A stretch of 64,000 bases of DNA from Pontixanthobacter aquaemixtae (lineage in GTDB: Bacteria > Pseudomonadota > Alphaproteobacteria > Sphingomonadales > Sphingomonadaceae), in the NCBI RefSeq assembly GCF_009827395.1, contig NZ_WTYX01000002.1, positions 558,001 through 622,000 of the forward strand, written 5' to 3'. The notes beneath the pieces were generated by a model. That model was given only the letters and a program-made list of their open reading frames with translations. It searched no databases and was not told where the DNA came from. The position numbers and the translations under genes are program-made. Positions 666 through 18,245 of the stretch are shown in pieces; position 1 is the first letter of the stretch, and the number at the start of each line of letters is the position of its first letter.

Positions 666-892
666 TAGGGTGTAGGCTCATTGTCGAGGGTACATCGATT
701 AAGCTCTGCATTCGGCCCATCACCCCAGGTGGCCATGGCGAGCCAGATGCCATGATATCTTCGGATTTGAGCTTGGTGGGCTCGCTCTTCAAAATCAACG
801 ATCCGCATGACTTCATCAAAATCATGCGGGCGTTCGTTGGGGCGCCAACGACTAGAATTGCTGGGATGGTGGGGATTGAGCGATTCGTGCAT
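665..892 (-). CDS. Small hypothetical protein coupled to the DnaX-like gene
   Basis: Seventy-five residues from the ATG at 892; the frame stays open to a GTG at 925, but that codon nearly abuts a palindrome at 929-942 and leaves no room for a ribosome site. The middle is rich in charged residues (a stretch around DFDEVMRIVDFEERAHQAQ), followed by an aromatic patch. There is no signal peptide or membrane segment and I recognise no family. Its TAA overlaps the ATG of the DnaX-like ATPase by one base, the best argument that it is real and works with that ATPase. An alternative overlapping frame (655-927) lacks this coupling. Confidence 0.55.
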   Translation of the reverse strand: MHESLNPHHPSNSSRWRPNERPHDFDEVMRIVDFEERAHQAQIRRYHGIWLAMATWGDGPNAELNRCTLDNEPTP

Positions 893-928
893 TTCAGGAC
901 TTTCTTCGAAATATAAAGTGCACACATA

Positions 929-942
929 AACTGTGTACAGTT
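929..942. promoter_or_regulatory. Palindromic candidate operator between divergent genes
   Basis: The sequence AACTGTGTACAGTT is a perfect 6-2-6 inverted repeat. It lies upstream of the minus-strand small-protein/DnaX-like pair and 46 bases upstream of the XRE regulator ATG. The position suits autoregulation by the XRE protein of a divergent promoter, but binding is inferred only from symmetry and position. Confidence 0.45.
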
Positions 943-988
943 ATATTTTCAAGCCTAACTTTTCTGGAGTTTCGGATTTCCTTGAGTT

Positions 989-1339
989 ATGGCCCTTCCT
1001 AATATGGACAGCTATTTCAGAACTCGCCGCAAGGAACTTGGCCTCACCGTCCCTGAAATCGCTGAGCGTGTAGGTGTTTCAGACACTGCTGCTTGGAATT
1101 GGGACCGCGGCAAATCACTCCCTAAAGAGGAGTATGTCGAGAAGCTGGCCGCCCTCCTTGATGTCAGTTCACACACGCTGAATGAACAGCTTGTCCGGAT
1201 TGACCCAGAATTGACTGATTTATCTAGCCGCGTTGACAGAATTCTGGATCGGGCGAGAGACGATTTGGCATCCCATCTTGGCGTAGAAGTCGAGCGCGTT
1301 GAAATAAACTTTTTGATCAAATCACGAGCTGACACTTAG
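989..1339 (+). CDS. XRE-family helix-turn-helix regulator
   Basis: A 116-residue cytoplasmic protein with an N-terminal Cro/C1-type helix-turn-helix at about residues 8-60 (RKELGLTVPEIAERVGVSD, then the recognition-helix region and the typical helix with KLAALLDV). The C-terminal half is charged and helical, probably for dimerisation. It is divergent from the DnaX-like pair, with a perfect palindrome between them that is its likely operator. Immediately downstream are a possible 39-codon gene and the DUF2779 nuclease on the same strand, which it may also control. The role is probably local control of island genes. Confidence 0.8.
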   Translation: MALPNMDSYFRTRRKELGLTVPEIAERVGVSDTAAWNWDRGKSLPKEEYVEKLAALLDVSSHTLNEQLVRIDPELTDLSSRVDRILDRARDDLASHLGVEVERVEINFLIKSRADT

Positions 1340-1343
1340 AAGA

Positions 1344-1463
1344 ATGGGGGGAGTCGGATGTGCGGGCTATCCTGAAAGTTTGGATTGGCCTGTGATTGCG
1401 ACGCCAAGAAACATTTCGCGCGGCCAGTTGAATGATGGGGAAATTGCGGAGCGCAGAATTTGA
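1344..1463 (+). CDS. Possible small ORF linking XRE gene and DUF2779 gene
   Basis: A 39-codon frame starts at ATG 1344, four bases after the XRE stop. Its TGA (1461-1463) overlaps the TTG start of the next gene in a TTGA arrangement. The composition looks protein-like, ending in a charged segment (SRGQLNDGEIAERRI). No family is recognisable and the ribosome site is weak. It may be a real coupling peptide or a chance frame; a downstream gene that begins with TTG often depends on such coupling. Confidence 0.32.
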   Translation: MGGVGCAGYPESLDWPVIATPRNISRGQLNDGEIAERRI

Positions 1464-2953
1464 AACGGCACGACCTAAGTAAAACCAAGATTACGCTATT
1501 CGAGCAATGCCCAAAGCGGCTTTGGCTTTCTGTGCGCCGACGCGATTTGATCAAAATCGATGCCGCAACGCAGGCGCGCTTTGATACCGGCCATGCCGTT
1601 GGCAACCTTGCTTGTGACTTGGTCGAAGACGGAGTGATGGTCACTATGGACGAAGGCGTCCAAGGGGCGCTGCAGCAAACCAGCAATCTTATCGCGGCAG
1701 CCGATCTCCCCATATTTGAAGGCACGTTTCAACATGAAGGCGTACTTGTTAGGGTCGACATCATGTGGCCAGATCGCAAGGACGGATGGCACGTCGCCGA
1801 AGTTAAAAGTACGGCTTCTCGCAAGGACTATCACATTGCGGATTTAGCAACGCAGGTCTGGGTTATGGAAGGTGCTGGTATCAAAATTGCCTCAGCTTTC
1901 ATCCGCCACATCAACACCAAGTTTGTCTATGCGCGTGAGCGCGACTACCTGGGGTTTCTAACGGATCGGCGCTCTGATGAGGAACTTAGGCCCATTGCCG
2001 ACGACCGGCTGGCTGTTGTTCTGGATGCGCGCCAAACACTACACGGTGATGAGCCAGATATAGCGCCTGGCCCGCATTGCGATGAGCCATTTGGGTGCGA
2101 TTTCAAAGAATACTGTTATCGCGGCATCAAACAGGCTGAGTGGCCAAATTCTCTTCTACCAAGGACCGGCAAGAAGATTGCCGCAGCATACCAGGTGAAA
2201 GGGGTTGAGGAGTTAACCGAGATTCCGGCAGGCGAGCTCAAAAACCCAGCGCATGAAACCATTCGGATTGCGACAGTCTCTGCCGAGCCTTTTCACGATC
2301 CTGAGCTAGCAGGCAAGCTCACAGCGGATTGGGTTTCACCCCGCATTTACCTGGATTTCGAAACTATCAATCCGGCTATTCCGCGTTGGATCGGCACGCG
2401 CCCCTTCCAGCAGATACCCTTCCAATTCTCCGCGCATATCGAGGACACATCCGGCGCGATAGAACACCGCGAATATCTTAGCCTTGAGGATGCAGACCCC
2501 CGACGCGCATTTGCTGAAGCTTTGCTGGACGCAGTGCCACCAAAAGGCGCAATTATCACTTACAATGCACGCTTTGAACGCTCGCGCCTAAATGAACTGG
2601 CAGCACGCTTCGGCGATTTGTCAGAAGCGCTGAAAGGGCTGGCAAGCCGCGTCGTCGATTTGGAACCTGTCGCGAGGCAATGCTGGTATCATCGCGACCA
2701 GAAGGGCAGTTGGTCGATCAAATATGTGTTGCCAACAATCCCAGGGATCAGCGGCTATGATGATCTGGATATTCAAGATGGCATGGAAGCTCAAAGAGCT
2801 TACTTTGAAGCACTAAAGGAGCCAATTGGAAGTTCTCGCCGCGACGAGATCGCGCAGAGCCTACGCGACTATTGCGCCAAAGACACGTTCGCCATGGTTG
2901 AATTGCTCCGGCATCTGACGAATGAAAGCGCTGGGGGAGTTGCAGAAAATTAG
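1460..2953 (+). CDS. DUF2779 protein: Cas4/RecB-like nuclease fused to DEDD-like exonuclease
   Basis: A 497-residue protein with a TTG start. The N-terminal half looks like a Cas4/RecB-type PD-(D/E)XK nuclease: CPKRLWL near residue 17, a core with Asp100 and EVK at 114-116, and a second cysteine group (about 207, 213, 219) which with Cys17 could hold a 4Fe-4S cluster. The C-terminal half begins with YLDFET (Asp299, Glu301), continues with TYNARFERSRL and ends with YCAKD (Tyr471 to Asp475), a pattern fitting a DEDD-type 3'-5' exonuclease. This architecture matches the family catalogued as DUF2779. It is the second or third gene after the XRE regulator and lies in a defence-rich island, so a role in DNA processing or anti-phage defence is plausible. 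Its substrate cannot be told from sequence. Confidence 0.8.
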   Translation: MKRHDLSKTKITLFEQCPKRLWLSVRRRDLIKIDAATQARFDTGHAVGNLACDLVEDGVMVTMDEGVQGALQQTSNLIAAADLPIFEGTFQHEGVLVRVDIMWPDRKDGWHVAEVKSTASRKDYHIADLATQVWVMEGAGIKIASAFIRHINTKFVYARERDYLGFLTDRRSDEELRPIADDRLAVVLDARQTLHGDEPDIAPGPHCDEPFGCDFKEYCYRGIKQAEWPNSLLPRTGKKIAAAYQVKGVEELTEIPAGELKNPAHETIRIATVSAEPFHDPELAGKLTADWVSPRIYLDFETINPAIPRWIGTRPFQQIPFQFSAHIEDTSGAIEHREYLSLEDADPRRAFAEALLDAVPPKGAIITYNARFERSRLNELAARFGDLSEALKGLASRVVDLEPVARQCWYHRDQKGSWSIKYVLPTIPGISGYDDLDIQDGMEAQRAYFEALKEPIGSSRRDEIAQSLRDYCAKDTFAMVELLRHLTNESAGGVAEN

Positions 2954-3038
2954 GCCAGTCACGCTGTAGAGCATGCAGAGCGGGTGCTATATGCCTTATG
3001 CCTTACTTCACCTCCCTAATACTACACCTTATCCTTCA

Positions 3039-3083
3039 ATATCAATATAGATATCAATATCTTCAAGATCCAAATATGGATCT
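3039..3083. repeat. AT-rich direct repeat and palindrome upstream of 3128 gene
   Basis: Two identical copies of ATATCAATAT (3039-3048 and 3051-3060) are spaced by two bases, followed by a 7-4-7 inverted repeat AGATCCA-AATA-TGGATCT at 3066-3083. They fill the AT-rich gap in front of the 112-residue gene. They may be regulator-binding sites or AT-rich filler; the perfect symmetry favours a function but no regulator can be assigned. Confidence 0.4.
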
Positions 3084-3127
3084 CAATCCTATCTACCTTC
3101 CTGCTTCAGGTTTGGGGGGATATTAAG

Positions 3128-3466
3128 ATGTCTTCTCGAGCGGAACGCAAATTTGAGCAATATGAGTATGCAGAGCCCGAGGGCCATGCCAACCCCAAGG
3201 TGAAAGCTGCGATTGAAGAGCTTCTGCTTCATCACACCGAGGTGAAGCAAATGCCCCAGCCAAGTCAGCTCAAATTATCCGCCTGGGTGAGCTATTACCC
3301 TACGACACGAACCATCTTCATCGACGGTGAGCAAGCTAAGCGAACCAATATGAGCATTCCTGATGTTGTTGCTCTGCTGAAAGAACGCGATGAGTTGCAT
3401 GAGCCTAGGCAAAGGCCTGAGCCCGGCGACTGTCATCTCAGTTTTGTTCGAAACGACAATGACTAG
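3128..3466 (+). CDS. Hypothetical protein, 112 residues
   Basis: The ATG at 3128 follows a G-rich ribosome site (GGGGGGA, about six bases upstream). The protein is hydrophilic, with no signal peptide or membrane segment and no cysteine clusters. It contains a predicted strand region SAWVSYYPTTRTIFIDGEQAKR, which could form a beta hairpin, and a helical segment with LKERDEL. I recognise no family. It stands alone between the DUF2779 nuclease and a 600-base gap, with palindromic AT-rich sequence upstream. Confidence 0.6.
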   Translation: MSSRAERKFEQYEYAEPEGHANPKVKAAIEELLLHHTEVKQMPQPSQLKLSAWVSYYPTTRTIFIDGEQAKRTNMSIPDVVALLKERDELHEPRQRPEPGDCHLSFVRNDND

Positions 3467-4068
3467 CGTTCGTTACCAACAGGACGTTCCACCCAAACCA
3501 GCCGGTCAACGCTGATTTGGATCAGCGGAATTGTGGTATTCATTTAACGCAGGACACTGACCTGCCTGCTCAGTTGTTTGACTGAACGGGGCCTTGGCAT
3601 TGGCCTATGCGATATGGTTCATGTGGTTTCGCTAAGCGGGCAATGGGCCTTGAGCCGACGCAAACCTTCGCTGTGTTCCTGAAGCCAATTCCACTTAGCG
3701 TTCTGCTGGACCTGACAGACTGCCTACTTTTTGCCGCTGGACCAACCGACATTGCACCTTTGACTCTCTGCGGTTATTTAGGTTCCTGCAGCAGGTCAGT
3801 CCCAGCTGTGAGGCTTTAGAACCTCCCACCACTGTCGCCGGTCAAGTTCATCTTGGCCGGGTGGCCGTTACGTATGTCCAGGGTTCGCCTAAAGGTGGCG
3901 GCGCTCTGTGACAGTGCAGGGTTCTAAACACCCGGCTTCGGGCCCGCCTCTTAATCGATTGAAACAAGAGGCAAAATTGCACAACACATCCATGCACCAG
4001 CCAACGCCGCAAACCCAGCGCGTTCATTTCACCGCACGTTTTCTGAATTCAATTTCAGGAGGACGATC
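3467..4068. other. Gene-poor stretch with structured segment
   Basis: No convincing coding frame is present; the short frames on both strands (for example 3570-3752 minus and 3607-3819 plus) are arginine/serine-rich or lack ribosome sites. The right half contains the stem-rich segment described separately, a CCCG-GCTT-CGGG hairpin at 3931-3942 and a 7-bp inverted repeat at 3946-3952/3966-3972. The left half (3467-3780) looks like degenerate sequence. Confidence 0.5.
3815..3928. ncRNA. Candidate structured RNA or folded DNA site
   Basis: The two ends pair perfectly over nine bases: TTTAGAACC (3815-3823) with GGTTCTAAA (3920-3928). A second helix nested inside joins CACTGTC (3830-3836) to GACAGTG (3910-3916). 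Further in is a hairpin CCGGTCAAG-TTCAT-CTTGGCCGG (3838-3860, one G-U pair). This nested order, a long terminal stem enclosing further hairpins, resembles a small RNA or a folded replication/transfer site. No known family is matched by eye and the transcribed strand is uncertain. Confidence 0.4.
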
Positions 4069-4317
4069 ATGAGTGGTGATAGGGGATGGCTATTCATTGC
4101 CATTGGGACATGGGGCACAGCCCTTCTGACACTTACCGATTACCGCCTCATGGCTGACCTCCCAGCCGCCTGGGCACGGGGCCAATGCAACTTGGTGGGA
4201 TTTGCCACCGTTCCATTCAAATATGTCGCAATTGGTGCGGGTCTAGCAACGTTAATCTACTGGTTCACAGCCATGCCGGATGGCTCCTCCGAGCAGGAGG
4301 CGCATGACGATGACTAG
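4069..4317 (+). CDS. Small inner-membrane protein
   Basis: Eighty-two residues with a strong AGGAGG ribosome site about seven bases before the ATG. Two hydrophobic segments are visible (about residues 6-25 and 48-66) separated by a short loop, with an acidic C-terminal tail ending EAHDDD. The stop codon overlaps the start of the lipoprotein gene, and the downstream ribosome site (AGGAGG at 4295-4300) lies within this gene, so the two are one translational unit. No family is recognised. Confidence 0.6.
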   Translation: MSGDRGWLFIAIGTWGTALLTLTDYRLMADLPAAWARGQCNLVGFATVPFKYVAIGAGLATLIYWFTAMPDGSSEQEAHDDD

Positions 4318-4900
4318 GCCGGCTCATATTATCGCCCTTGCTGTCATACTCAGTACTGCGGCCTGCTCGCCCGGAGTTGACGAGGAAACAACCGGCGACG
4401 GAGGCTGGCAACTGAGAGAAGAGACCGACAAGTTTACCGACCAAACCAACAGGTCAGCTCAAAGAACATTCGTTCAAGACGATGCGCAGATCACCTTAGA
4501 AGTTAGCTGCAACAATGGCGGGGTCACATACCAAGCCACAGCATTTGACGCGGATGGCAAGGGACTCGATTTTAGCACTCAGTCAGGCTTCGATTACTAT
4601 GGCAACCCATATACCAACACCCGAGTGTGGATGCGTTTCGATGACTTGGGGACGATTCCTTTTAGCGCTTCAATCCCGCATTACTCCAATCAGGCAGACA
4701 TATTGGTGCGGTGGGAAAAGCAGGATGCCGTGCAGGCGCGAAATGTGCTTCTGCGCCTTCAATTCGTGGACCGTTCGACTGATCTGGAATTTGATCAATC
4801 CGACTCAGCGGTACAGCGAGTACTGGAGCCCTGTGCCGAGGCGATGGAGCAGCAGGCGCAAAGCCCGCAAGCTGCCAATGAACAGATCCGCAACAGGTAG
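4310..4900 (+). CDS. Putative lipoprotein
   Basis: About 196 residues. The signal peptide is short and hydrophobic (IIALAVILSTAAC), with the lipobox cysteine followed by SPGVDEE, so the protein is probably anchored in a membrane facing the periplasm. Candidate ATGs are at 4280, 4304 and 4310; 4310 is preferred because it lies nine bases after AGGAGG. The mature part contains a conserved-looking SCNNGG motif and several beta-strand-like stretches, but no family is recognised. The C-terminal region is glutamine- and alanine-rich. It overlaps the upstream membrane-protein gene by eight bases, so the two products may act together at the envelope. Confidence 0.65.
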   Translation: MTRPAHIIALAVILSTAACSPGVDEETTGDGGWQLREETDKFTDQTNRSAQRTFVQDDAQITLEVSCNNGGVTYQATAFDADGKGLDFSTQSGFDYYGNPYTNTRVWMRFDDLGTIPFSASIPHYSNQADILVRWEKQDAVQARNVLLRLQFVDRSTDLEFDQSDSAVQRVLEPCAEAMEQQAQSPQAANEQIRNR

Positions 4901-5433
4901 GCTGCGCACTTAAGTGTGACAGTATTGCGCCCCAAAATCCGTCTTTCGGCGCTAACAGTTACTAGACCAAAAGCGGCCGTTCTGAAATTTGATGGTAGAG
5001 AATATCTATTGGCCGAGACGAAAGGCATAAGCGGTTAGCGCATGATGATGCTCTTCGAGTTGGACGCCTGCGATACGCGCCAAGGTGCCCGATGGGCAGC
5101 AATCAACTCAGCCCCCACAACATAGTTCGATCAAAAATCATCCTTTCAGAGTGCACCAAAGATCGGACCTTTGTTACGCGCGATCGTCCACATTAAGCGG
5201 GTTTGGGCTGAGTAAGCGGTCATCATTTCGCGATTGTCATAGCGATGCGCCGCGCGGGCCAGTGGCAATAATAACGGCGAACCTGTCCGGCCCCCGATCG
5301 ACTGCTTCTACGCTGGTCGCGAGACCAAATTCGTTGTTCGCAATTAAGAGCGATTGAGGCTTTCAGCGACGTTGCATTTAACGCGAACTAGCCAAGACGT
5401 ATCACCCGTGTCAAAACGCCGGCAGGAGACATT
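4901..5433. other. Gene-poor stretch, no supported gene
   Basis: The short frames here (such as 5085-5357 plus and 4795-5028 minus) have no ribosome site or recognisable protein character. Patches such as the one near 5165-5240 look like the decayed repeats often found between island cassettes. Only the last 20 bases have a clear purpose: AGGAG ahead of the ATG at 5434. Confidence 0.5.
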
Positions 5434-5889
5434 ATGGCCATAAACGAAGAAGTCATGACAATCATCCGCATCCTCAACGAGGAAGGGTTCGGCGTTCTTG
5501 CCGGCGACCTCATGGTCGAAATCAGCCAGGGGCGAGACCAACGCGAACTCGACGAAGAGACGCTAGACACCGAGACGGCCGATTATGATGCGCGAGAGCC
5601 AATCGCCCCCGAGGATCAGCTCCCTGCAGCCATGCAAATTCTGCACCGCCGCCTCGTCGCACCGGCCAAGGCGCTTGCGGAAGGGGAGCGTCTGCTGGGT
5701 GAACTTGGACAGGGAAAACCGGTACGCATCCGTTTCGTCGACCCCGTCGAAGGCATCGACCGGCTGGCCACGGCGCGCGACGACAATCCCAATTTCCCAC
5801 TTGGCCGCGATGACATTGGCCGGAGCGACGTTGCCGAAAAGCTCGACGAACTATTGGCGCAGATCGCCGCACCCGGGGCGATCGTCTGA
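5434..5889 (+). CDS. Hypothetical acidic protein coupled to a putative nuclease
   Basis: A 151-residue protein with a good ribosome site (AGGAG, seven bases before the ATG). It is acidic, with an N-terminal helical region (EEVMTIIRILNEEGFGVLAGDLMVEIS) followed by a run of Asp/Glu and a C-terminal helix (VAEKLDELLAQIAAP). No known family is recognised. Its TGA overlaps the ATG of the next gene (TGATG), which indicates coupled translation and probably a shared function with the PD-(D/E)XK-like protein, for example as a regulatory, immunity or specificity partner. Confidence 0.65.
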   Translation: MAINEEVMTIIRILNEEGFGVLAGDLMVEISQGRDQRELDEETLDTETADYDAREPIAPEDQLPAAMQILHRRLVAPAKALAEGERLLGELGQGKPVRIRFVDPVEGIDRLATARDDNPNFPLGRDDIGRSDVAEKLDELLAQIAAPGAIV

Positions 5890-6683
5890 TGGCGCTCAGC
5901 TCGACCGCCAAGACCGAATTGCGCAATATGCTGCGGGCGTTTCGCGCGGCGCACGGACCGACCGCCGTGCCCAATGGCAATGGCAAAGCGCTCGAAGCAT
6001 GGCTGCTCGTAAAGATTGCCATGGAAGCAAACCGGACCGGTCACTGGACGGTCGAGTTGCGGCGCGGCGACGGCTCACCGCTTCCCCCTGGACAGCCTTT
6101 CGATTTGCCAGGAGGTCCGAGCCAGTTGCGCCCGAGTAATCCGTCAGGTCCGTGTTTCGTCCATATCGAGCACAATCTGCATGGCGCCCGACTCGAAATT
6201 CACGGCAGCCTGCAATGGATGGGACGCAGCAATGCGCGGCACGAGTGCGATATCTCTGTAGTCCCGGCGCAGATCGCTGAACGACTGCGGTTCAATGGTG
6301 GTGGCTATCCGCATGGCCTCCCCGTTGCTGCCATCGAGTGCAAGGACAAAACGGGGGACGGCGTGCTCGACGAAACGCGCCAGACTCTCGCACGGATGTT
6401 CGACCTTGCCCTGATCACGGCACCGCAAGGCATCGGCGAGTGTCGTATTTTCGAAGCCTCTACCAACTCCCGCTGGGGAATTCGCAACACCACCTATCGC
6501 GGACTTTATTCGACCGGCACATTTGCCATCGCTCGCGCTGGGAATTTCCAGCCTGGCGCGCGGCGCCTGGCAACGCACTACTACATCGCAACGCTTGATT
6601 CGATTTATGAAGCGTCAGGAGCGTCGGTGGGCGCGCTGATGTCGCGATGGCAGACGACACTCGCAGCCATCACCACCTTCTAA
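5889..6683 (+). CDS. Putative PD-(D/E)XK nuclease of unknown family
   Basis: A 264-residue cytoplasmic protein. The pattern HECDISVV (Asp121), VAAIECKDK (Glu150, Lys152) and a helix with DETRQTLARM (Gln165), preceded by an N-terminal helix with Glu36 (KALEAWLL), fits the PD-(D/E)XK fold seen in restriction and repair nucleases. The N-terminal 110 residues could carry recognition functions but resemble nothing I can name. It follows the 151-residue gene with a one-base overlap. Function is inferred from the motif only; a toxin or restriction role in a two-gene defence unit is a reasonable guess. Confidence 0.6.
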   Translation: MALSSTAKTELRNMLRAFRAAHGPTAVPNGNGKALEAWLLVKIAMEANRTGHWTVELRRGDGSPLPPGQPFDLPGGPSQLRPSNPSGPCFVHIEHNLHGARLEIHGSLQWMGRSNARHECDISVVPAQIAERLRFNGGGYPHGLPVAAIECKDKTGDGVLDETRQTLARMFDLALITAPQGIGECRIFEASTNSRWGIRNTTYRGLYSTGTFAIARAGNFQPGARRLATHYYIATLDSIYEASGASVGALMSRWQTTLAAITTF

Positions 6684-7276
6684 GAGGGCTCGGATATGAT
6701 GGATCGAGGCCGCCCAACAATCTGGCGGCTGGTTTGCGCCCCAGTTCAAGACGTAAGCTTCCGATTCCTTAGTCCCCGAAAGCGGACATTTTACTCGGCC
6801 ATATGGGTAAAGAAGACTTGAGGTGGCCCACTCATCAATCGCCCTCGCCACACAAAGATGCGTTTCGGGGATTTCTGAGGCCACCTTCAAAATCGATCGT
6901 CTTCTCAGTCAGGCCGATATGCACCCATTGGAACGTCTCCCATTTCGGTCAGGCAAGGGCGTTCGCGCGTTAAACGGCGTGGCAACCGATAGCACTTCTT
7001 ATGCTTGCGATTGCCCTGAGAATCGAGCGTCTATTCACCTTTCAGTTCCTCGCCTATCGTCTTGAAGTCTTGGAATTACTCGAGCGTCTAAGTCTCTCAA
7101 CCTTCCGCGCTTGCGATTTCTACTATCGAACTCTAACGGTCTTTTGTGGTGCTCTATATAAGAAAATTCATCTCTTCTGCAGTTTATGAAGAGATTTGAA
7201 AGCTTTGCGAGGCCTTAAGCCAGTCTCAGCGCTATCGGAAAACCCGACGGCCCAATTCGTATCGGAGGAAAAGCTC
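6684..7276. other. Gene-poor stretch upstream of the defence operon
   Basis: No supported gene. The short frames (6615-6890 minus, 6823-7065 plus, 7001-7189 plus) lack ribosome sites and look random. The last 130 bases are AT-rich (around CTCTATATAAGAAAATTC, 7152-7169) and probably contain the promoter of the operon beginning at 7277. A TTG at 7196 is in frame with that operon's first gene but is a weaker start. Confidence 0.5.
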
Positions 7277-8734
7277 GTGAAGAGGATAAGTAATCCGCCC
7301 GATGCTCTTTCCCTAATGACGTCTGCCCGCAGTTTCGGAAACTATGATCTTGCAGCTGCGCTCGCAGATCTGATCGACAACAGTATCACAGCAAGAGCGA
7401 AGAACGTCTGGATCGCCTGTCGATACAATGGCGGCGATCCAGCTGTCTCGATCACCGACGATGGCGAGGGAATGAGCCCCGATCGTCTGGAAGAAGCAAT
7501 GCGGCCTGCCTCCTCCAATCCCTCCGAAGAGCGCTCACCCGATGATCTGGGCCGTTTCGGTTGGGGTCTGAAATCGGCTTCATTCTCTCAGTGCAAGAAG
7601 CTCACCGTGATCTCGAGAAAATCGGGCATTGCGCATGGGGCCGAATGGGACCTCGATGCCATTGAGGACTGGTCGATGGGCATCCTCGAGGCCGGAGAGG
7701 TCGATGCAATCGCTACGCACGAGTTTCCAGCCGACCACGGGACCGAGGTCACCTGGAGCAATTGCGATCGGCTCTCGGAAAACTGGAAGATTTCTTCACA
7801 AGCCTTCAATGAGCTCATCGTGCATGCGATGCACGAGCTGGCTCTTATCTTCCATCGCTTTCTGGAAGGAAAGGTCGATAGACAGAAGCTCAAAATCCAT
7901 TTCAACGGCCAAGCTCTGGAGCCCTTCGACCCTTTCCATACCTCCCACAATGCCACCCAGCCACTCGAATGCGAGCCACTCGAGGTCTCGGGAAGCCGCG
8001 TCGAAATAAGGCCGTTCATCCTTCCCCACTTCTCCAAGCTCAAGGAGCACGAGCATGAAAGGCTCGGCGGCAGAGAGGGCTTTCTCAAGAACCAGGGGTT
8101 CTATGTCTATCGAAACAACAGACTGATCATTCATGGCACCTGGTTCGGTCTCGTGAAGCACGCCGAGATGTCGCAGCTGATCAGGATCAGTGTCGATATC
8201 CCAAACACCATGGACGACATGTGGAAGATCACGGTCGACAAGAGCGATGCACAGCTGCCGTCGGTCCTGAGAATGAGACTGAAGCAGATCGTCGCTGGCC
8301 TCAGGCAACGCTCGACCCGGGTCTACAGGCAAAGAGCTGGCCGGATAAACGATCCCACAACAGAGGCAGTCTGGACGCGATACACACGGAATAATGAAAT
8401 CCAGTATCGCGTGAACAGGGACCACCCGATCGTTGCTCAGCATCTTTCGTCCGACAGCGGGAAAGAAGCCAGTGCCGTGATGAAACTCATCGAGCGCAAC
8501 TTTCCAGTGTCATCTTTCATGGATGACACCGCGCTTCGCCCGGAACGGCTCGCGCAAACGGCTGCAAGCAGGCGAGAGATAACCGATCTACTCGAGGCCA
8601 CGCTCCCTCGACTGCTTCACGAATGCGGTGGCGACAAACAAGTGATGTCGCAGAAGCTGCGGCAAACCGAACCCTTCACGGTCAATTGGCCGGTGGTCGA
8701 AGAATACCTCCAGAACCATGGTTGGGCAGCATGA
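7277..8734 (+). CDS. GHKL (MORC/Hsp90-like) ATPase of restriction-like operon
   Basis: About 485 residues from a GTG at 7277, which has a strong GGAGGAA site 6-7 bases upstream; the frame stays open to a TTG at 7196. The Bergerat ATP-binding fold is clear: the N box LADLIDNSI, the G1 motif TDDGEGM and the GRFGWGLKSAS segment. The C-terminal half is mostly helical with no other domain I can name. GHKL ATPases of this class are the bacterial relatives of eukaryotic MORC proteins and are found in operons with Z1 and PD-(D/E)XK proteins. ATP-driven clamping or dimerisation on DNA is the likely role. The ATGA overlap with the Z1 gene shows tight coupling. Confidence 0.85.
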   Translation: MKRISNPPDALSLMTSARSFGNYDLAAALADLIDNSITARAKNVWIACRYNGGDPAVSITDDGEGMSPDRLEEAMRPASSNPSEERSPDDLGRFGWGLKSASFSQCKKLTVISRKSGIAHGAEWDLDAIEDWSMGILEAGEVDAIATHEFPADHGTEVTWSNCDRLSENWKISSQAFNELIVHAMHELALIFHRFLEGKVDRQKLKIHFNGQALEPFDPFHTSHNATQPLECEPLEVSGSRVEIRPFILPHFSKLKEHEHERLGGREGFLKNQGFYVYRNNRLIIHGTWFGLVKHAEMSQLIRISVDIPNTMDDMWKITVDKSDAQLPSVLRMRLKQIVAGLRQRSTRVYRQRAGRINDPTTEAVWTRYTRNNEIQYRVNRDHPIVAQHLSSDSGKEASAVMKLIERNFPVSSFMDDTALRPERLAQTAASRREITDLLEATLPRLLHECGGDKQVMSQKLRQTEPFTVNWPVVEEYLQNHGWAA

Positions 8735-11490
8735 GCATCAAGGCGAAAGCGGGTTACTTCGCACTTCTGGTCAGAGAACGCTACGCGGACGAGCTGAAGC
8801 AAATGGCTTCAATCCCGCCCGAGGCCATCGATACGGTGCTTCAAGAGGATCCCTTCGCTCTCAGTGAGGAGAATCTAGCTGCCGTTCGACGTCACCTCGA
8901 ATTCCAGTTTTCGGTGCGACAGGACGCAGGCCATTCGGTCAAGAGCGATTACAAGCCTTGGCTTCGCGAGCGGACTATCGATTTCTATTACTGGGACCGA
9001 CTGAGGAAATACTATCTCGAGTCCGATGCCCTGCCCCCAAACGTCATTTCAAGGCTCGATGAAGTCACTGACGAAGTGCTCGACTATTGCGGCAACCCCG
9101 AAGACGAGGGGACCTGGGGCCGGCGGGGAATGGTCATGGGGCATGTTCAGTCAGGGAAGACAACAAACTACGCGTCCTTGATCTGCAAGGCTGCTGACGC
9201 CGGCTACAAGATCATCATTCTCCTAGCCGGGCTCACCAACTCCCTGCGCACCCAGACGCAAGAGAGAATGGACGAGACATTCATCGGCAAGAAATCGCTC
9301 TTCGGACAGCGCTTTCCCGATCTAATGCCGATCATGTCCCATTGTCCCCCGGGCGAACGTTTCTTCCCGGTATTCGGGACGACGAGAGATTCCGACTTCA
9401 ACACCGAGATCTCAAAGTTCGGTGTCACTCTCGACAACCTCAAGGACCCGATCATCTTCGTCACGAAGAAGAACAAGGGGATACTGGAAAACCTACTCAA
9501 GTGGATCGAAGGGCAACGGCAGGACGGTCGCAAGATCGACTATCCACTTCTCATGATCGATGATGAAGCGGACAATGCGTCAATCAACACGCACAAGGAT
9601 CCAACCAAGTCGACCGCGATCAACAATGTCATGCGTTTGCTGCTCCAGCAGTTCAACCGATCGAGCTACGTGGGATACACTGCAACTCCGTTTGCCAACA
9701 TCTTCATCGATCCTGAATCCGAAGCTCAGATGCGCGGAGATGACCTCTTTCCTCGCCACTTCATCAAGGCCCTCGACCCTCCGACGAACTATGTCGGCGC
9801 CACGAAGGTCTTCTCGCCAGAAGGCTCCCTACGACCGCAGATGCTGCGGGTCGTCGAGGACTACGGTGATATTCTTCCTCTCAAGCACAAGAAGGATCTG
9901 GAGCTGGAAGAGCTTCCGCCATCCCTTCTTGAGGCCATCCGGGCTTTCGTTCTGATCCGGGCCATGCGCGTATTGCGTGGCGATGGCGAGAAACACTGTT
10001 CGATGATGATCAATGTCAGTCGCTTCAACGACGTCCAGGCTCGCATCCATGACCTTGTCTACAGCTATCAGCAGCGGTTGGATGACGCCATCAAGGTCAA
10101 TTCAGGTTTGGGATCAGCGGCGATTCAGGATCCGGATATCCTTGAGCTGAAGCAGACTTTCGAGCGCGAATTCCAGCATACCGAGTTCGACTTCGATGAG
10201 GTCCTGCCTGCGCTGACGGAAGCATCGAAAACGATCAAAGTCAGAACGATCAACATGCGTGGCGGTGCACTCAACTATGAGGAAAGCAAGGAGCACGGCC
10301 TGCATGTGATCGCGATCGGCGGTCTGGCACTCTCTCGCGGCCTTACACTGGAGGGCCTGTCCGTAAGTTATCTGCTCCGGAATTCGGCCGCGTCAGACAC
10401 TCTGATGCAGATGGCGCGCTGGTTTGGTTATCGCCGAAACTACGAAGATCTATGCAGGCTATACATCTGCCAATCTGCCGTCGATCACTATGAATATATC
10501 GATGACGCGGTCGAGGAACTGCGAGGCGAACTCAAGCGAATGGAGGCTCGTGGAGAAACACCCGAGCAGTTCGGCCTGAAGGTCCGGCGAAGCGAAACCG
10601 GGATCATGATAACGGCTGCAAACAAGATGCGCAGCGCCCAGCGTATGCAGCTGGCAGAATCCTTCGCCTACAAGCATGTCGAGGGTTTCGCGCTGTTCAA
10701 CGATGCCAAGGTAAATCGCACAAACCTGGAAGGCACATGTGCCTTTCTTGAGGAGCTTGGTCGCGCGGAACGGCCAGCCGGATCGGATGACGAACAGGTG
10801 CGGAAAGAGCTCGAAAAGCACCTTGCTTGGCGTGGCGTTGATGGACGCAAGATCCACGATCTTCTGATGGCGTTCCAGTTCCATGCCAACCAGCCGTCGT
10901 TGGGCAAGATCGATGGCACGAACTCTCTTCTGAGCGACTACATCTCGGACAGGCTCCAGGGCGAGCTCTCGACCTGGGATGTTGTCGTCCCATTTCGTTT
11001 TCCGAAAGGGGGAGAAACCAAGCCCCAGTCCGTCGCTATGGACAAGATAGACCAATACGGAAAATGGCCTCTGCGCAGCAGAAACAGCGGCAAGGTCAAG
11101 TCGATAAACGGGATCGAAGCCTTCAAGCCGTTTGGGGACAGGAACAGAATCGCAGACCCGTCCGAAGACCCTCCGCTTCTTTTGACCGAGGAGCAGCGTG
11201 GTAACGCTCGAAAGCGTCGGAAGGACGGCTTTCGCGGCGACACTGCATTTTGCGCTGCCCGGAAGAAGCCATTGCTGATCGTGCACCTCTTTGACGTTGC
11301 CGATCCCTCAGAGGAACTGAAGCGGAGCTTCAAGATCAAGGACCTGCCGGTGGTCTCGCTCAGCTTCTGCATCCCAAAGACCCACTCTCCGGTTCAGCCA
11401 AAAGAGTATGAGGTCAATGCGGTCTACCGTCAGCAGCTGGAGCTGTTGGCTCAAGAGCCGGATGACGATGAGGAAATATTCGATGGATGA
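8731..11490 (+). CDS. Z1-domain helicase-like ATPase
   Basis: 919 residues from the ATG at 8731, which overlaps the upstream stop (ATGA). The P-loop is GHVQSGKT (residues 137-144), the DEAD-like Walker B is IDDEAD (276-281), and a superfamily-2 motif-III-like GYTATPFANIF follows. Further motifs include GGLALSRGLTLEGL and QMARWFGYR, typical motif V/VI positions in Z1 proteins. Z1 ATPases are partners of restriction nucleases, as in the CglI and NgoAVII systems, where ATP hydrolysis drives DNA cleavage. Here the protein is the central motor of the operon. The length fits the family and no frame damage is seen. Confidence 0.88.
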   Translation: MSIKAKAGYFALLVRERYADELKQMASIPPEAIDTVLQEDPFALSEENLAAVRRHLEFQFSVRQDAGHSVKSDYKPWLRERTIDFYYWDRLRKYYLESDALPPNVISRLDEVTDEVLDYCGNPEDEGTWGRRGMVMGHVQSGKTTNYASLICKAADAGYKIIILLAGLTNSLRTQTQERMDETFIGKKSLFGQRFPDLMPIMSHCPPGERFFPVFGTTRDSDFNTEISKFGVTLDNLKDPIIFVTKKNKGILENLLKWIEGQRQDGRKIDYPLLMIDDEADNASINTHKDPTKSTAINNVMRLLLQQFNRSSYVGYTATPFANIFIDPESEAQMRGDDLFPRHFIKALDPPTNYVGATKVFSPEGSLRPQMLRVVEDYGDILPLKHKKDLELEELPPSLLEAIRAFVLIRAMRVLRGDGEKHCSMMINVSRFNDVQARIHDLVYSYQQRLDDAIKVNSGLGSAAIQDPDILELKQTFEREFQHTEFDFDEVLPALTEASKTIKVRTINMRGGALNYEESKEHGLHVIAIGGLALSRGLTLEGLSVSYLLRNSAASDTLMQMARWFGYRRNYEDLCRLYICQSAVDHYEYIDDAVEELRGELKRMEARGETPEQFGLKVRRSETGIMITAANKMRSAQRMQLAESFAYKHVEGFALFNDAKVNRTNLEGTCAFLEELGRAERPAGSDDEQVRKELEKHLAWRGVDGRKIHDLLMAFQFHANQPSLGKIDGTNSLLSDYISDRLQGELSTWDVVVPFRFPKGGETKPQSVAMDKIDQYGKWPLRSRNSGKVKSINGIEAFKPFGDRNRIADPSEDPPLLLTEEQRGNARKRRKDGFRGDTAFCAARKKPLLIVHLFDVADPSEELKRSFKIKDLPVVSLSFCIPKTHSPVQPKEYEVNAVYRQQLELLAQEPDDDEEIFDG

Positions 11491-12469
11491 GCATACCGAC
11501 GGCTGGTCTGACATTGGGAGCGCCCCGGGAGCGAGGACGGAACGTCGCGCGGATCCTGATCACCCTCTCGACTTTTTTCGAGCCCGCAGCGAGGCCGGGA
11601 ACTACATGCTCGTGCTCAAGGGCGAGAGCATCGTCATCACAAACGATCTGCCTGTGCTGTCCGGCCTCTCCATTTCGCTCGCAAATGGGGCATCTGACTC
11701 GACCGAGTTGAGGCTTGAGCTGCTCGACGCCGAACAGAGGTCAATCTTCAAGGCTTTGGTTGCAGACATTCTCAGGGCGACGCAGGACGTAGCGATCAAC
11801 GACAGCAACGCAGGCGCCGCGAGGGTCGTGACTCGCATTGAAAGATGGCGCGATTTCCTGAAGCGAAGGCGCGAGCAAGTGCTGTCGCGCCAGGCGATAC
11901 TTGGCCTTTTCGGCGAATTGCACTTTCTGAGTTCGAGGGTGCTCGACCAACTGGCTCCGATGGATGCAATGCTGGCATGGCGAGGGCCACACGGCGAAGA
12001 GCAGGATTTTGCGATTGGCGGATGGATCCTTGAGATCAAGACGCAGCTCTCGACTGCGGATCAGTTCCTCAAGATCAGCTCGGAAGCCCAATTGGACACC
12101 GCCTCGGGTCCGATACTGATCTGCCACCAGACATTTTCGTCATGTCCGGAATCGGATCCAGATGCGATGTCGCTGAAGGAATTGGTCAACCGACTGCGCG
12201 CGCTACTTCTGGACCAAGCTCCGCTGGCAATCGATATCCTCGAAGCCGGATTGATTGCCGTCGGCTATGAAGACCGACCGGAATACGATCAGGAGAAATG
12301 GAAGTCGGTGGCGTCGCAGTTCTTCGAAGTCGAGGAGGGCTTCCCGCGGCTGGCGCCGTCGAACATTCCACAGGGGATACAGTCGGTTCGATACAGGATC
12401 CTGCCAGCCGCATGTTCCAGATTCAAAAGAGACGAGGCTTGGCTGAAGGAGAAGATCTTCGATGCCTGA
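11483..12469 (+). CDS. PD-(D/E)XK motif protein (DUF4420-like nuclease)
   Basis: About 328 residues; the frame is open from 11408, but the ATG at 11483 follows an AGGAA site and keeps only an eight-base overlap with the Z1 gene. The motif set LGLFGELHFL (Glu145), EEQDFAI (Asp175) and WILEIKTQ (Glu184, Lys186) fits the PD-(D/E)XK fold, and the position between Z1 and AIPR genes matches the family listed as DUF4420. It is the probable DNA-cutting subunit. It overlaps the next gene by eight bases, so all four operon genes are translationally linked. Confidence 0.83.
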   Translation: MDEHTDGWSDIGSAPGARTERRADPDHPLDFFRARSEAGNYMLVLKGESIVITNDLPVLSGLSISLANGASDSTELRLELLDAEQRSIFKALVADILRATQDVAINDSNAGAARVVTRIERWRDFLKRRREQVLSRQAILGLFGELHFLSSRVLDQLAPMDAMLAWRGPHGEEQDFAIGGWILEIKTQLSTADQFLKISSEAQLDTASGPILICHQTFSSCPESDPDAMSLKELVNRLRALLLDQAPLAIDILEAGLIAVGYEDRPEYDQEKWKSVASQFFEVEEGFPRLAPSNIPQGIQSVRYRILPAACSRFKRDEAWLKEKIFDA

Positions 12470-14564
12470 CCAATCGGACCTTTCACAGGATTACCCGGCC
12501 TTCAGGGAAGACTTGCTTAGAGAAGCGGAGACGCTCGGCGAGCCTCAGCAAGCCGTCCTTTTCTCGACTTATGCGTCGCTCGCCGCGGAGAATGGGGACA
12601 CCAGCGATCTGACTTATGTTCCCATCCTGAGGGAGGGGGCACGGCCTTTCCAGGTGGATGGATACGCATGGGACCCAGCCCAGGGAGAGCTGCATCTGGC
12701 TGTCTGCGACTACCACTCGGACGATGAACTTCAGACGATAAACTTTGATCGAGCGGATCAGCTGTTCAAGCGGGTGCGTCGCTTTTGTGAACTCGCGATC
12801 GATCGAGATTTCGTCCAGTCTCTGGAAGAGACAAGTCCGAGCTTTGATCTCGCCAGTCTGCTTTTCGAGATCCAAGGCAAGATCAAGCGAATTCGGTGCG
12901 TGCTGTTCAGCAATGCTCGCCTGGCCACTAGGAAGAAGACATTGGAGGCCGATGACTTGATCGGTGCCCAGATGTCGCAGAGCATAATCGACTTCGCTCG
13001 CTTCATCGACATTCAGAACGCCCAAGGTGGAACCGAGCCGATCGAGCTTGATGTTCAGGAGCTCAACGAAGGCGAATTGCTGCCTTGCCTCGATGCTCAT
13101 GATGGCGATGAGTCCGTCGAATCCTACCTGATCGTGATGCCCGCTACACTGCTTGCGCGCATCTATGGACTGTATGGCGCGAGGCTCATGGAGCAGAATG
13201 TTCGCACATTCCTGCAAGCGAGGACGAAGACAAACAAGGGGATCATAACGACTGCCAAGGACGAGCCTGGCATGTTCTTCGCCTACAACAACGGCATCAC
13301 CGCCACTGCGAGTGGGATTGTCGTTGGTCAGGATGAGAACGGCCAGCCCGGCATCGAGAAGATCGAACATCTTCAGATCGTTAACGGAGGGCAGACGACC
13401 GCATCTTTGCTGTATGCGAGCGATCACGGATCGGCAGATCTCTCGAAGATCTTCGTTCAGATGAAGCTCTCGGTGATCGATCCGGCAAAGGTTGATGACG
13501 TCGTGCCCAAGATCTCGCGGTATGCAAATACGCAGAACCGCGTGAGCGAGGCCGACTTCTTCTCCAATCACCAGTTCCATGTGGAGATGCAGAAGATTTC
13601 GCGCCGCCTCCTTGCTCCAGTGATGGAAGGTCGCCTCGCTGGCACCAAGTGGTTCTACGAGCGAGCTAGAGGCCAATATCGAAACGAGACCGCGCGGAAG
13701 TCAGCCAAGGACAGGAACACTTTCCAAGCCGAGTTTCCGCGCAATCAGGTCATTCAGAAGACGGACCTCGCAAAGTATCAGATATCGTTTCGTCCTGATC
13801 CGGCGATGGTCAGCCTCGGCGCCCAGAAGTGTTTCCTTGGGTTTGCCGACGAAATTGGCAAGAAATGGGAAAGTGAGCGAGCGGCGTTCAATGACGCCTA
13901 TTTCAAGGAGATGGTTGCGAAGGCCATCATCTTCAAGAGTCTCGATCGCGAGGTCGCGCGCGCCCAGTGGTATAAGGAGGACCGAGGTTACAAAGCCAAC
14001 ATTGTCACCTACACGATTGCCTGGCTCGTTCATCACCTGAACAAGCAGAAGAAGAAAATCGATTTTGAACTGGTATGGAAGAAGCAGGAGCCTCCAGTCG
14101 AGTTGCAGGATTGCCTTGAGCTGCTGGCGCCTCAGGTAGCCAATTTGCTGAAGACTCCCCCTGCAGGCTTCTCCAATATCAGCGAATACGCAAAAAAGCC
14201 CGCTTGTTGGAGCCGCATCTCGGAGGCTGATCTTGAATGTTCGGATGACGTGCTCGAGGCAACGATCAGCTTTGACGAGGCCCAAGCAAGATCTGCGGAC
14301 AACAAGGCCGCTGGAAAGATCGACATCGAGCTTGAATTCGAACAGCTACTTTTCACCGAGAGCCAGCGTATCGTGGGTCTGGAAGCCTTCCTCAGGCAAA
14401 AGGGCTTGCTGTCTCCGAACTCTCAATCGGCCATAGGCAAGTTGAAGCGCCACCAATTCAATCTGAGCAAGAGCGAAAAAAGGGCGCTTGAGCACCTCTT
14501 CAAGCGGCTGGACGACGAGTTCGATGCTGGTCCTAAGCAATGGGCAAAGGAAGCCGCAGCTTAG
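12462..14564 (+). CDS. AIPR-family (abortive infection phage resistance) protein
   Basis: A 700-residue protein. Family hallmarks are the segments FAYNNGITATASGI (around residue 275) and HLQIVNGGQTTASLL (around 306), followed by KISRYANTQNRVSEADFFSN. AIPR proteins were named for phage resistance by abortive infection and often accompany restriction-type operons; their biochemical activity is not settled. It is the last gene of the four-gene operon and converges with the methyltransferase, with only 39 bases between the stops. The reading frame is complete. Confidence 0.87.
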   Translation: MPDQSDLSQDYPAFREDLLREAETLGEPQQAVLFSTYASLAAENGDTSDLTYVPILREGARPFQVDGYAWDPAQGELHLAVCDYHSDDELQTINFDRADQLFKRVRRFCELAIDRDFVQSLEETSPSFDLASLLFEIQGKIKRIRCVLFSNARLATRKKTLEADDLIGAQMSQSIIDFARFIDIQNAQGGTEPIELDVQELNEGELLPCLDAHDGDESVESYLIVMPATLLARIYGLYGARLMEQNVRTFLQARTKTNKGIITTAKDEPGMFFAYNNGITATASGIVVGQDENGQPGIEKIEHLQIVNGGQTTASLLYASDHGSADLSKIFVQMKLSVIDPAKVDDVVPKISRYANTQNRVSEADFFSNHQFHVEMQKISRRLLAPVMEGRLAGTKWFYERARGQYRNETARKSAKDRNTFQAEFPRNQVIQKTDLAKYQISFRPDPAMVSLGAQKCFLGFADEIGKKWESERAAFNDAYFKEMVAKAIIFKSLDREVARAQWYKEDRGYKANIVTYTIAWLVHHLNKQKKKIDFELVWKKQEPPVELQDCLELLAPQVANLLKTPPAGFSNISEYAKKPACWSRISEADLECSDDVLEATISFDEAQARSADNKAAGKIDIELEFEQLLFTESQRIVGLEAFLRQKGLLSPNSQSAIGKLKRHQFNLSKSEKRALEHLFKRLDDEFDAGPKQWAKEAAA

Positions 14565-14603
14565 ACTGTTTCAAGCACCTCGCTTGTTGCCTCATTTTCA
14601 GTT

Positions 14604-16112
14604 TCACCTTGCGCCAAGGCGCTCCAAAAGCGCCTCCGCGATTCTCCTTGCAAGAAGAGGAGGAACGGCATTCCCAACCTGGGTGAACTGGGCAGTCCTG
14701 CCTGTTCCCTCGAAAAGGTAATTGTCAGGGAAGGTTTGAAGCCGCGCTGCTTCCCTGACTGTCAGGCTCCGACATTGCTCGGGATCAGGGTGAATGTAGG
14801 CATGTCCGTCTTTTGAAATATGACTGGTGACGGTGGTGGAAGGCTGCCCCCACACTTGCACCCTGAAGCGGTCTGCATAATTGCCGGTGCTCCAGTTCTT
14901 GTGCATCGGTGCAAGGCCCGAAGGGAACTCTGAAGACTTCGGTGATCGGCCGAATGCTGTCCCGAAGGCGGAGACAAACACATAGCGCGCCAGATCGGGA
15001 GCCATGTGCCCACGGGTTTCGTGATTGGCCAGAGAGTCGAGCCTTGGATCAGACAACCAGGCTGCCAGCTCGTTGTCTCGAGCTCCGGTGATGGACTTGC
15101 TGTGTCGCTCGAACCTGGGCGCTTGGCTCTCGATCTTCTGCAGCGTTTCGCAAAGAACTTCGGCCACGGGCTCAAGCGACTTGTCCGCCTCGAGGCAGCT
15201 TGCAATTGCCTTTCTGCAGCCTGCCGCCACGGCATTTTGCCAGCCGTGAGAGCTGTCATCCCTCTCTGGACTCAGCCCGCTTCGCACTTCTGGCAGTCCT
15301 TCGAGAACATCGGAAACAGTAGCTTTGCGTATGACCGGAACGAGGCCCGGCAGGGCCTCCATGTCCTTAACGCGTGAGCCCTTCCTGATCCCGACAACGA
15401 TTACGCGATGGCGCCTCTGGGGGACCCCATAGTCTTCACTTCGGATCAGGAAGCTTCCGCCCCTTCCATCCCTGACTAGAGGGAATAACTCATATCCGTC
15501 CGCGCCTCCTGCTCGCTTCAGATCATCGAGAATGCGTTCGAAAATACCGTGACCTCCCACCTTCGAGGAGAGAATGCCTTTGACGTTCTCCATCACAAAA
15601 GCGGTGGGCTGCAGGCGGTCGATTATTCGGATGTATTCCTTGTAGAGGAAGTGCCGTTCATCCTGGTTGGGATCATAGCCTTCGAGGCTGCGGTTCTTGT
15701 TTCTTCCGACGATTGAGTATGCTTGGCAAGGAGGGCCGCCAATGAGAACGGTGTTCTCTGCCTGACACCGCAGCTCGTCTAGAATTGGGTCCAATGCCTC
15801 TTGAGCCTCAGCGGTGCCGAGCTTCAGCTGCATCGTTTCTGCTTCCGCCGCTCGCCATTCAGCTGCATGTATTGAGATCATCTCATCCTTTGAGATGCGC
15901 CCAGCGATATAGTCATAATATTCGGGAGGGGCCTGCTCGAACTGCCTGAAGAAACTGCGCAGTCTCAGTGTCGCAAACGCGTTGCTTTCCATTTCGACGG
16001 AGAGTGCGATCTCAAAGACACGCTCGCCATTTTCATTTCGAAGCGATGAGAATCCCTCAGCCAGGCCTCCCGGCCCAGCAAACAAATCTACGACCCTGTA
16101 TCGAGATCCCAT
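14604..16112 (-). CDS. DNA (cytosine-5-)-methyltransferase
   Basis: About 502 residues from the ATG at 16112; an upstream in-frame GTG (16133) is less likely because AGGAG lies between them. All major C5-methyltransferase motifs are present: I (VVDLFAGPGG, 7-16), IV with the catalytic cysteine (GGPPCQAYS, Cys129), VI (ENV, about 175-177), VIII (QRRHRVIVVG), IX (REAARLQTFPDNY) and X (QVGNAVPPLL). The long segment between VIII and IX should be the target-recognition domain. It transfers a methyl group from S-adenosylmethionine to cytosine in a specific site. It converges with the GHKL-Z1-DUF4420-AIPR operon and is the likely protective partner. No Vsr gene is nearby. Confidence 0.92.
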   Translation of the reverse strand: MGSRYRVVDLFAGPGGLAEGFSSLRNENGERVFEIALSVEMESNAFATLRLRSFFRQFEQAPPEYYDYIAGRISKDEMISIHAAEWRAAEAETMQLKLGTAEAQEALDPILDELRCQAENTVLIGGPPCQAYSIVGRNKNRSLEGYDPNQDERHFLYKEYIRIIDRLQPTAFVMENVKGILSSKVGGHGIFERILDDLKRAGGADGYELFPLVRDGRGGSFLIRSEDYGVPQRRHRVIVVGIRKGSRVKDMEALPGLVPVIRKATVSDVLEGLPEVRSGLSPERDDSSHGWQNAVAAGCRKAIASCLEADKSLEPVAEVLCETLQKIESQAPRFERHSKSITGARDNELAAWLSDPRLDSLANHETRGHMAPDLARYVFVSAFGTAFGRSPKSSEFPSGLAPMHKNWSTGNYADRFRVQVWGQPSTTVTSHISKDGHAYIHPDPEQCRSLTVREAARLQTFPDNYLFEGTGRTAQFTQVGNAVPPLLARRIAEALLERLGAR

Positions 16113-16244
16113 AAGTCTGAATAACTCCTGCACTGAGTCGGATACAGGTTTGTGATGAAATAACCAGGGGCAGAATGCCAGACGGTGCTGTCAGAGCAAG
16201 TGCACCATCTAGCGTAAATCGCATGATCGGTTGAGGCGGAGCGC

Positions 16245-16812
16245 ATGCCTAGACCGAAGAAGCCGGCCAGCCCGTTTCGCCATTTTAACTCATCACCTGA
16301 AGTGATCCGCCTTGTAGTGATGATGTATGTGCGTTTTCCGCTGAGCCTACGGAATGTGTAAGACTTGCTCGCGGAGCGAGGCATCGACATCTGCTACGAA
16401 ACTGTCAGATTTTGGTGGAACCGGTTCGGGCCGCTGTTTGCGGGCGACATTGAACGGCAGTGGATCAGTCGGATGCGCGGCTTTAGAAATTGGCGCTGGC
16501 ACTTGGATAAGGTGTTCGTGAAGATCAACGGCGAAACGCATTACTTGTGGCGCGCGGTTGACCACGAAGGCGAGACCCTTGAGAGCTATGTTACGAAGAA
16601 ACGAAACAAATCAGTGGCTTTGCGATTTTTTCAAGAAGACGCTGAAGCGGCATGGGAAAGTCGAGACTGTCGTCACTGACGGTCTAAAACCCTACCCTGC
16701 TGCGACGAGAGAAACCGACAATTTGAACCGTCAGCAAATGGGGCGTGAAGACAGTCGGCTTTCGATATCTGAACCGCCGAGAGCGGACAGTCAGTCTTCG
16801 GCCCAATTCTAG
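16245..16812 (+). pseudogene. Degenerate IS6-family transposase
   Basis: The translation from ATG 16245 (MPRPKKPASPF) continues into family-typical stretches such as ERGIDICYETVRFWWNRFG, WHLDKVFVKINGETHYLWRAVDHEGE and LKRHGKVETVVTDGLKPY, a DDE-type IS6 transposase. It is broken by an in-frame TAA at 16359-16361, by a frame change near 16620-16640 (around a run of six T) and by decay of the C-terminal third, where only an RRER-like trace remains near 16780. I could not identify matching terminal inverted repeats. It lies between the methyltransferase and the integrase. Confidence 0.8.
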
Positions 16813-16854
16813 CCACCGTTCACCGTTTCAAACAGCTGTAGACATTCGCTTCGC

Positions 16855-18066
16855 TCACAATGCGAGCCCTTCAAGCGCATTCAATGCCGCTTCATTAGTA
16901 AGCTGCCCATAGTGCCGTTCGATCATCTCAGCGGAAGTGCCGGAAATCTGTGCGATAGTAAGCAATGGTAGCCCTGCCTTGACCAAGTCAGTTATCGTTG
17001 AGTGACGCAAGGTGTAAGCGGTAGCATCACCTGGCAAACCCGCAGCCTCGACCGCGACCGATATTGGGCGCTTCCAAGTGTGCCGGGTCCAACGGCTTCC
17101 GTCCTTTCGCATGAATATCGGAGCGGCAGGGAGTTTGTCTTTGGATTGCTCGGATAAGAGCTTTGCGGCTTCATCTGGAACTGGAATGTCGCGCGTTTCG
17201 CCTGCCTTATCCTTTCCAATGTTTAGCAAGCCAGTTGCAGCCTGATAGTCGCCAACAGATAGATTTGCCATTGCTCCCGGGCGAATTGGCAGCAAACAAA
17301 GAGCTCGCACGAACGGCTCTGCTTCTCTGCTCATGTGTCGCAGTAATTGTCGCCTTTGCTCGCGATCCAGATAAGTTTTTCGCTTGCCGTCAGCCCTTCT
17401 GATTGAAGCGAGCGGTTCCTGCCAAGCTGAGACGGTACCAGGCGCGCCGTAGGCAAGAACCTTGGACAGTGCCGCTCTGAGCACAGCCATATCGCGGTTG
17501 ATAGTCGAGGGAGCGCGCGGGCGCACCTTAACCTCTCCTCGCTTTGACCTGCTGACAAGAGCTGGTTGCTTCTCAAGCCAATCTCGCCACTCTTGAAGGT
17601 GGCGTTTGCGGAGTTTTTCTAATTTCACTCGCGCGAGCGGCTGGTCATAGATGTAGCGATCAAAGCGCTGTTTGGTCTCCTTGCGCTTTTCGGGAGTGGC
17701 CAGTTTGGCAGTGTAATCGCGGCAAGCATCCGCAACAGTCTGAATTTCGGGCGTCAGTTCACCACCTGTTTCAACTAGCTTCGCATATTCCTCGGCAGCA
17801 TCCTTCGCTGCTTTGAAGCGCCTGCTAGGCTCTAGCTCGCCATAATCGCCGAGCTTCTTTTTCTTATACTTACCTGTGTCGGGGTCAGTTACCCGGGCAA
17901 ACCACGTGCCATTCGCAGATTTGCCGCTCACCTTCTCAGAAGCGCGATATCCGATAAAGCACCCTGCGAAGAGCTTTTGCCAATACGGATCATTGGTTTT
18001 GCTCTGTTTCCCAGAGATACGAGGCTTAAGGCCATTGCGGGTGGTTACGTTTGATAGATCAGCCAC
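16855..18066 (-). CDS. Tyrosine-recombinase integrase
   Basis: A 403-residue site-specific recombinase. The N-terminal region resembles the arm-binding domain of tRNA-targeting integrases (GTWFARVTDPDTGKYKKKKLGDY), followed by a SAM-like core-binding domain (about 105-220). Catalytic residues can be placed at Arg262 (LLPIRPGAM), Lys285, Arg354-His355 (YTLRHST), His385 and the nucleophile Tyr386 (ERHYGQL). The first His of the usual HxxR box is Tyr351 here, a known type of variation. Its start faces the tRNA-Arg fragment 130 bases away, the normal integrase-att layout. It should catalyse excision and integration of the island. Confidence 0.9.
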   Translation of the reverse strand: MADLSNVTTRNGLKPRISGKQSKTNDPYWQKLFAGCFIGYRASEKVSGKSANGTWFARVTDPDTGKYKKKKLGDYGELEPSRRFKAAKDAAEEYAKLVETGGELTPEIQTVADACRDYTAKLATPEKRKETKQRFDRYIYDQPLARVKLEKLRKRHLQEWRDWLEKQPALVSRSKRGEVKVRPRAPSTINRDMAVLRAALSKVLAYGAPGTVSAWQEPLASIRRADGKRKTYLDREQRRQLLRHMSREAEPFVRALCLLPIRPGAMANLSVGDYQAATGLLNIGKDKAGETRDIPVPDEAAKLLSEQSKDKLPAAPIFMRKDGSRWTRHTWKRPISVAVEAAGLPGDATAYTLRHSTITDLVKAGLPLLTIAQISGTSAEMIERHYGQLTNEAALNALEGLAL

Positions 18067-18195
18067 TTGAGTGCCAACAAGAAATAGGTAAAAAATAGGA
18101 AAAACTCATATGGACACATCTGGACCTATTCGAAACAAAAAGCAATGAAAACAATATCAGAATTGTCCACGAGCATCCACAGGCATCCCTATGCC

Positions 18196-18245
18196 CTGCC
18201 CTCCGAAGGCAGAGGCCAGAGGTTCGAATCCTCTCGGGTGCGCCA
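18196..18245 (+). other. Attachment site: 3' fragment of tRNA-Arg(CCG)
   Basis: The anticodon arm CTGCC-CTCCGAA-GGCAG (anticodon CCG at 18203-18205), the variable region, the T arm (AGAGG-TTCGAAT-CCTCT) and the acceptor 3' strand CGGGTGC-G-CCA are all present. The 5' acceptor strand and D arm are absent upstream, where the sequence is unrelated. Such a fragment is the duplicated chromosomal half left at one junction by an integrase that targets a tRNA gene. The exact left end of the identity block is unknown without the other junction. Confidence 0.85.

Follow-up and report, generated by a model that had tools for sequence, protein, structure and literature searches.

The stretch of DNA analysed here, referred to as the window, comprises 64,000 nucleotides of Pontixanthobacter aquaemixtae (NCBI RefSeq assembly GCF_009827395.1, contig NZ_WTYX01000002.1, here C2, positions 558,001 to 622,000), and at 7277..16112 it carries an operon of four overlapping genes facing a DNA methyltransferase gene. 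The first gene (7277..8734, plus strand, GTG start, with the longest open reading frame (ORF) running from 7196) encodes an MzaB-like, MORC-type GHKL ATPase of 485 residues with an HATPase_c_3 domain, in which the MORC motif, defined by Iyer et al. 2008 as GhXhhpXXRhl, reads GFYVYRNNRLI. The second (8731..11490, plus strand) is an MzaC homologue according to PADLOC and NCBIfam, and its superfamily 2 (SF2) helicase motif, DTLMQMARWFG, agrees with the definition DThhQXuRhFG from the same study. It is followed by genes for an MzaD-like DUF4420 PD-(D/E)XK nuclease of 328 residues (11483..12469, plus strand) and an MzaE-like AIPR protein of 700 residues with an AIPR_N domain (12462..14564, plus strand), both recognized by Pfam, PADLOC and NCBIfam. 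The E-D-ExK motif of the nuclease, whose RE fold is predicted, is invariant in 73 of 73 sequences. On the minus strand lies the gene for a 502-residue C5-cytosine DNA methyltransferase with a DNA_methylase domain (14604..16112, ATG at 16112, longest ORF from 16133), whose stop codon is separated from that of the AIPR gene by 39 bases (14565..14603, no strand). The intact operon, its spacing, the domain calls and the motifs put forward in an earlier note on this DNA were all borne out.

PADLOC names the four genes MzaB, MzaC, MzaD and MzaE, in that order, with 257, 457, 67 and 237 bits. The corresponding NCBIfam scores (315, 546, 129 and 311 bits) all lie under the equivalog cut-offs of 850, 1500, 420 and 1050, and identities to the E. 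coli MzaB, C, D and E proteins are 35, 38, 25 and 29%. The MZA system (mzaABCDE) was reportedly described by Gao and colleagues in 2020. The window locus shares its MzaB-C-D-E homologues in the same order but has no MzaA gene and possesses, in addition, the convergent C5 methyltransferase. MzaA, an ankyrin and sigma-70 protein, has three matches in the window’s genome, all under the cut-off and all on contig C1; since it is absent from C2, we rejected it as a missing component of the locus. A phmmer search with one MzaA across 80 loci (L035-L114) gave strong matches in L107 and L111, although a diverged MzaA could escape such a search; a weak match in L066 (35 bits) was taken for an ordinary sigma factor. 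Comparison with the defence catalogues, which the earlier note had proposed, places the four genes with the MZA models, but at sub-threshold NCBIfam scores and without MzaA.

The methyltransferase itself best matches DrmMII in PADLOC (308 bits, among the best 25 of 55 families). The core of DISARM consists of DrmA, DrmB and DrmC. PADLOC was run on 18 distinct proteins, of which the methyltransferase alone matched a DISARM model (DrmMII), and the DISARM core was not found among them.

The gene set is strongly conserved. Among 57 relatives with enough flanking sequence, 56 contain all four core genes; the earlier note had proposed such a co-occurrence check for all five. At 51 of these 56 loci a gene for a C5 methyltransferase is found within 1 kb, and at four others one is found within 2.6 kb; the sole full locus without one in that range is a canonical MZA locus. 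The convergent orientation is one among several arrangements seen across the loci.

Operons of this kind are already in print. The third MORC operon type of Iyer et al. 2008 (PMC2292703), defined by comparative genomics without experiment, shares with the window locus the MORC motif, the SF2 helicase motif, the RE-fold nuclease motif E-D-ExK and frequent cytosine methylases, and no difference was found in the part of the article available, where a legend also describes AIPR as common in restriction-modification operons. This agrees with the link from Z1 and GHKL/MORC proteins to restriction-modification that the earlier note had credited to Iyer and colleagues. The type II putative system of Miller et al. 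2022 (PMC9523054), as far as the accessible text goes, has the same gene content, including the additional AIPR protein and MORC association that the window locus also displays; it is likened there to mzaBCDE, with mzaA rare, and its function and mechanism are left open. The description of the locus as an incompletely described system accordingly stands for the mechanism but not for the gene set. CglI and NgoAVII are more distant: in the available portion of PMC4267653 they are three-gene systems whose nuclease is a PLD-B3 protein, with no MORC or AIPR, whereas the window locus has DUF4420 instead and Pfam finds no PLD or B3 domain in its five proteins. The window operon is a real, intact and well-conserved defence-type operon of a published kind. 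Our literature search found no experiment on this widespread family.

What is new is the comparative evidence tying MZA to methyltransferase-bearing relatives. Of the relatives found, the two closest to E. coli MZA (L118 and L151) carry an MzaA-like gene together with homologues of MzaB-E and a C5 methyltransferase in convergent orientation, and on gene content they appear to bridge the canonical and the methyltransferase-bearing forms. Because both keep all of these genes, E. coli MZA has probably lost its methyltransferase, which suggests that the better-known E. coli-type MZA is a trimmed-down version derived from the fuller form.

Taken together, the five genes probably form an anti-phage system, predicted to combine an enzyme that marks DNA with a machine that attacks it. 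In an ordinary same-site restriction-modification system, one of the four proteins would read the methyltransferase’s site through its own DNA-reading domain, a role that in R.CglI is thought to fall to the B3 domain (PMC4267653, available part). We regard this as unlikely here. In the close clade (21 rows, window included), the degree of methyltransferase identity shows no correlation with the identities of the four partner proteins (rank r between -0.18 and 0.05), and in 7 of 25 similar pairs the four proteins are 0.79-0.95 identical while the methyltransferase recognition regions share an identity of just 0.07-0.30. When six of these seven swap pairs were set against nine pairs that share the same methyltransferase, none of the 233 segments of 30 residues examined along the four proteins was strongly divergent (lowest z -2.6). 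Methyltransferases therefore appear to have been exchanged between loci, and their strong variation among some loci with otherwise 79-95% identical proteins, unaccompanied by any clear corresponding change elsewhere, speaks against the four proteins having a reader domain of that kind. The restriction-type cassette of the earlier note is partly supported: the known defence gene set and the conserved methyltransferase fit it, while a matched same-site form appears unlikely.

A still less probable alternative is abortive infection, in which the four proteins would detect infection and then kill the cell or arrest it, with the methyltransferase either a passenger or an orphan methylase acting independently. 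The apparent exchange of methyltransferases and the derivation of the AIPR name from abortive infection (PMC2292703, in the part available) fit this view, as does canonical E. coli/Kluyvera MZA, which has no methyltransferase in the available stretches L107, L111 and L115 and may itself act by abortive infection. A passenger would not, however, be as constant as the methyltransferase is across the full loci. Several points nevertheless weigh against our preferred reading of a marking enzyme coupled to an attacking machine that lacks its own site reader. Canonical E. coli MZA lacks a neighbouring methyltransferase, so the four-gene core can act without one; no Vsr was found in the window’s genome; and the predicted fold of the AIPR protein (pLDDT 88.6) has no PDB match below E = 0.3. 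Moreover, some methyltransferase correlation peaks reached low permutation p values, the 25 locus pairs are few and non-independent, and recognition regions of dissimilar sequence could share one target.

A 28.3-kb integrative island in a tRNA-Arg(CCG) gene, covering C2:547870-558000 and window positions 1-18241 (locus L138), houses the operon. The intact tRNA lies left of the window (C2:547870-547946), and an exact repeat of the last 24 bases of its 3' end marks the right end of the island (18218..18241, plus strand); with one mismatch allowed, the genome contains no further copy. Between them lie the operon and the island’s tyrosine integrase (16855..18066, minus strand; Pfam, NCBIfam), as well as an IS6-family transposase fragment (16365..16679, plus strand; Pfam DDE_Tnp_IS240; NCBIfam 86.5 bits, under the cut-off of 125). 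The G+C content of the island part of the window (0.52-0.57) is lower than that of the 12 kb to its right, where it is 0.565 at first and then 0.58-0.61. One congener (G120) has a near-empty site, with only some 450 bases separating the two flanks. The separation is about 10 kb in G291, 8 kb in G222 and 22 kb in G259, where additional copies of the tRNA end occur between the flanks or at the far one. The remaining three congeners have short contigs or do not carry both flanks on a single stretch.

Other genes accompany the operon. Left of the window, a PDDEXK_13/REase-ARP-like nuclease gene (L138:8711-9805, C2:554711-555805) followed by a DUF2958 gene is a possible second defence pair in the island. 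Also on the island, L138:2564-8275 holds two long ORFs of 1131 and 770 residues without a convincing Pfam match, and a DnaX-like clamp-loader AAA protein (L138:10590-12665, minus strand) extends into window positions 1-665. At 1460-2953 lies a DUF2779 protein of weak Cas4-like similarity, with a relative in one other locus (L052). Two adjoining ORFs at 5434-6683 have no Pfam or PADLOC match at E 0.001 and no relative in 105 other loci; the second bears, by eye, an ECK motif in a nuclease-like context.

In summary, the window locus is an intact and clean example, with all five genes, of a widespread family that intermediate gene sets tie to MZA. If E. coli MZA has indeed lost a methyltransferase that its relatives keep, self/non-self discrimination by MZA would become directly testable. 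If it is the methyltransferase that determines the target, the operon would encode a restriction machine that can be retargeted.
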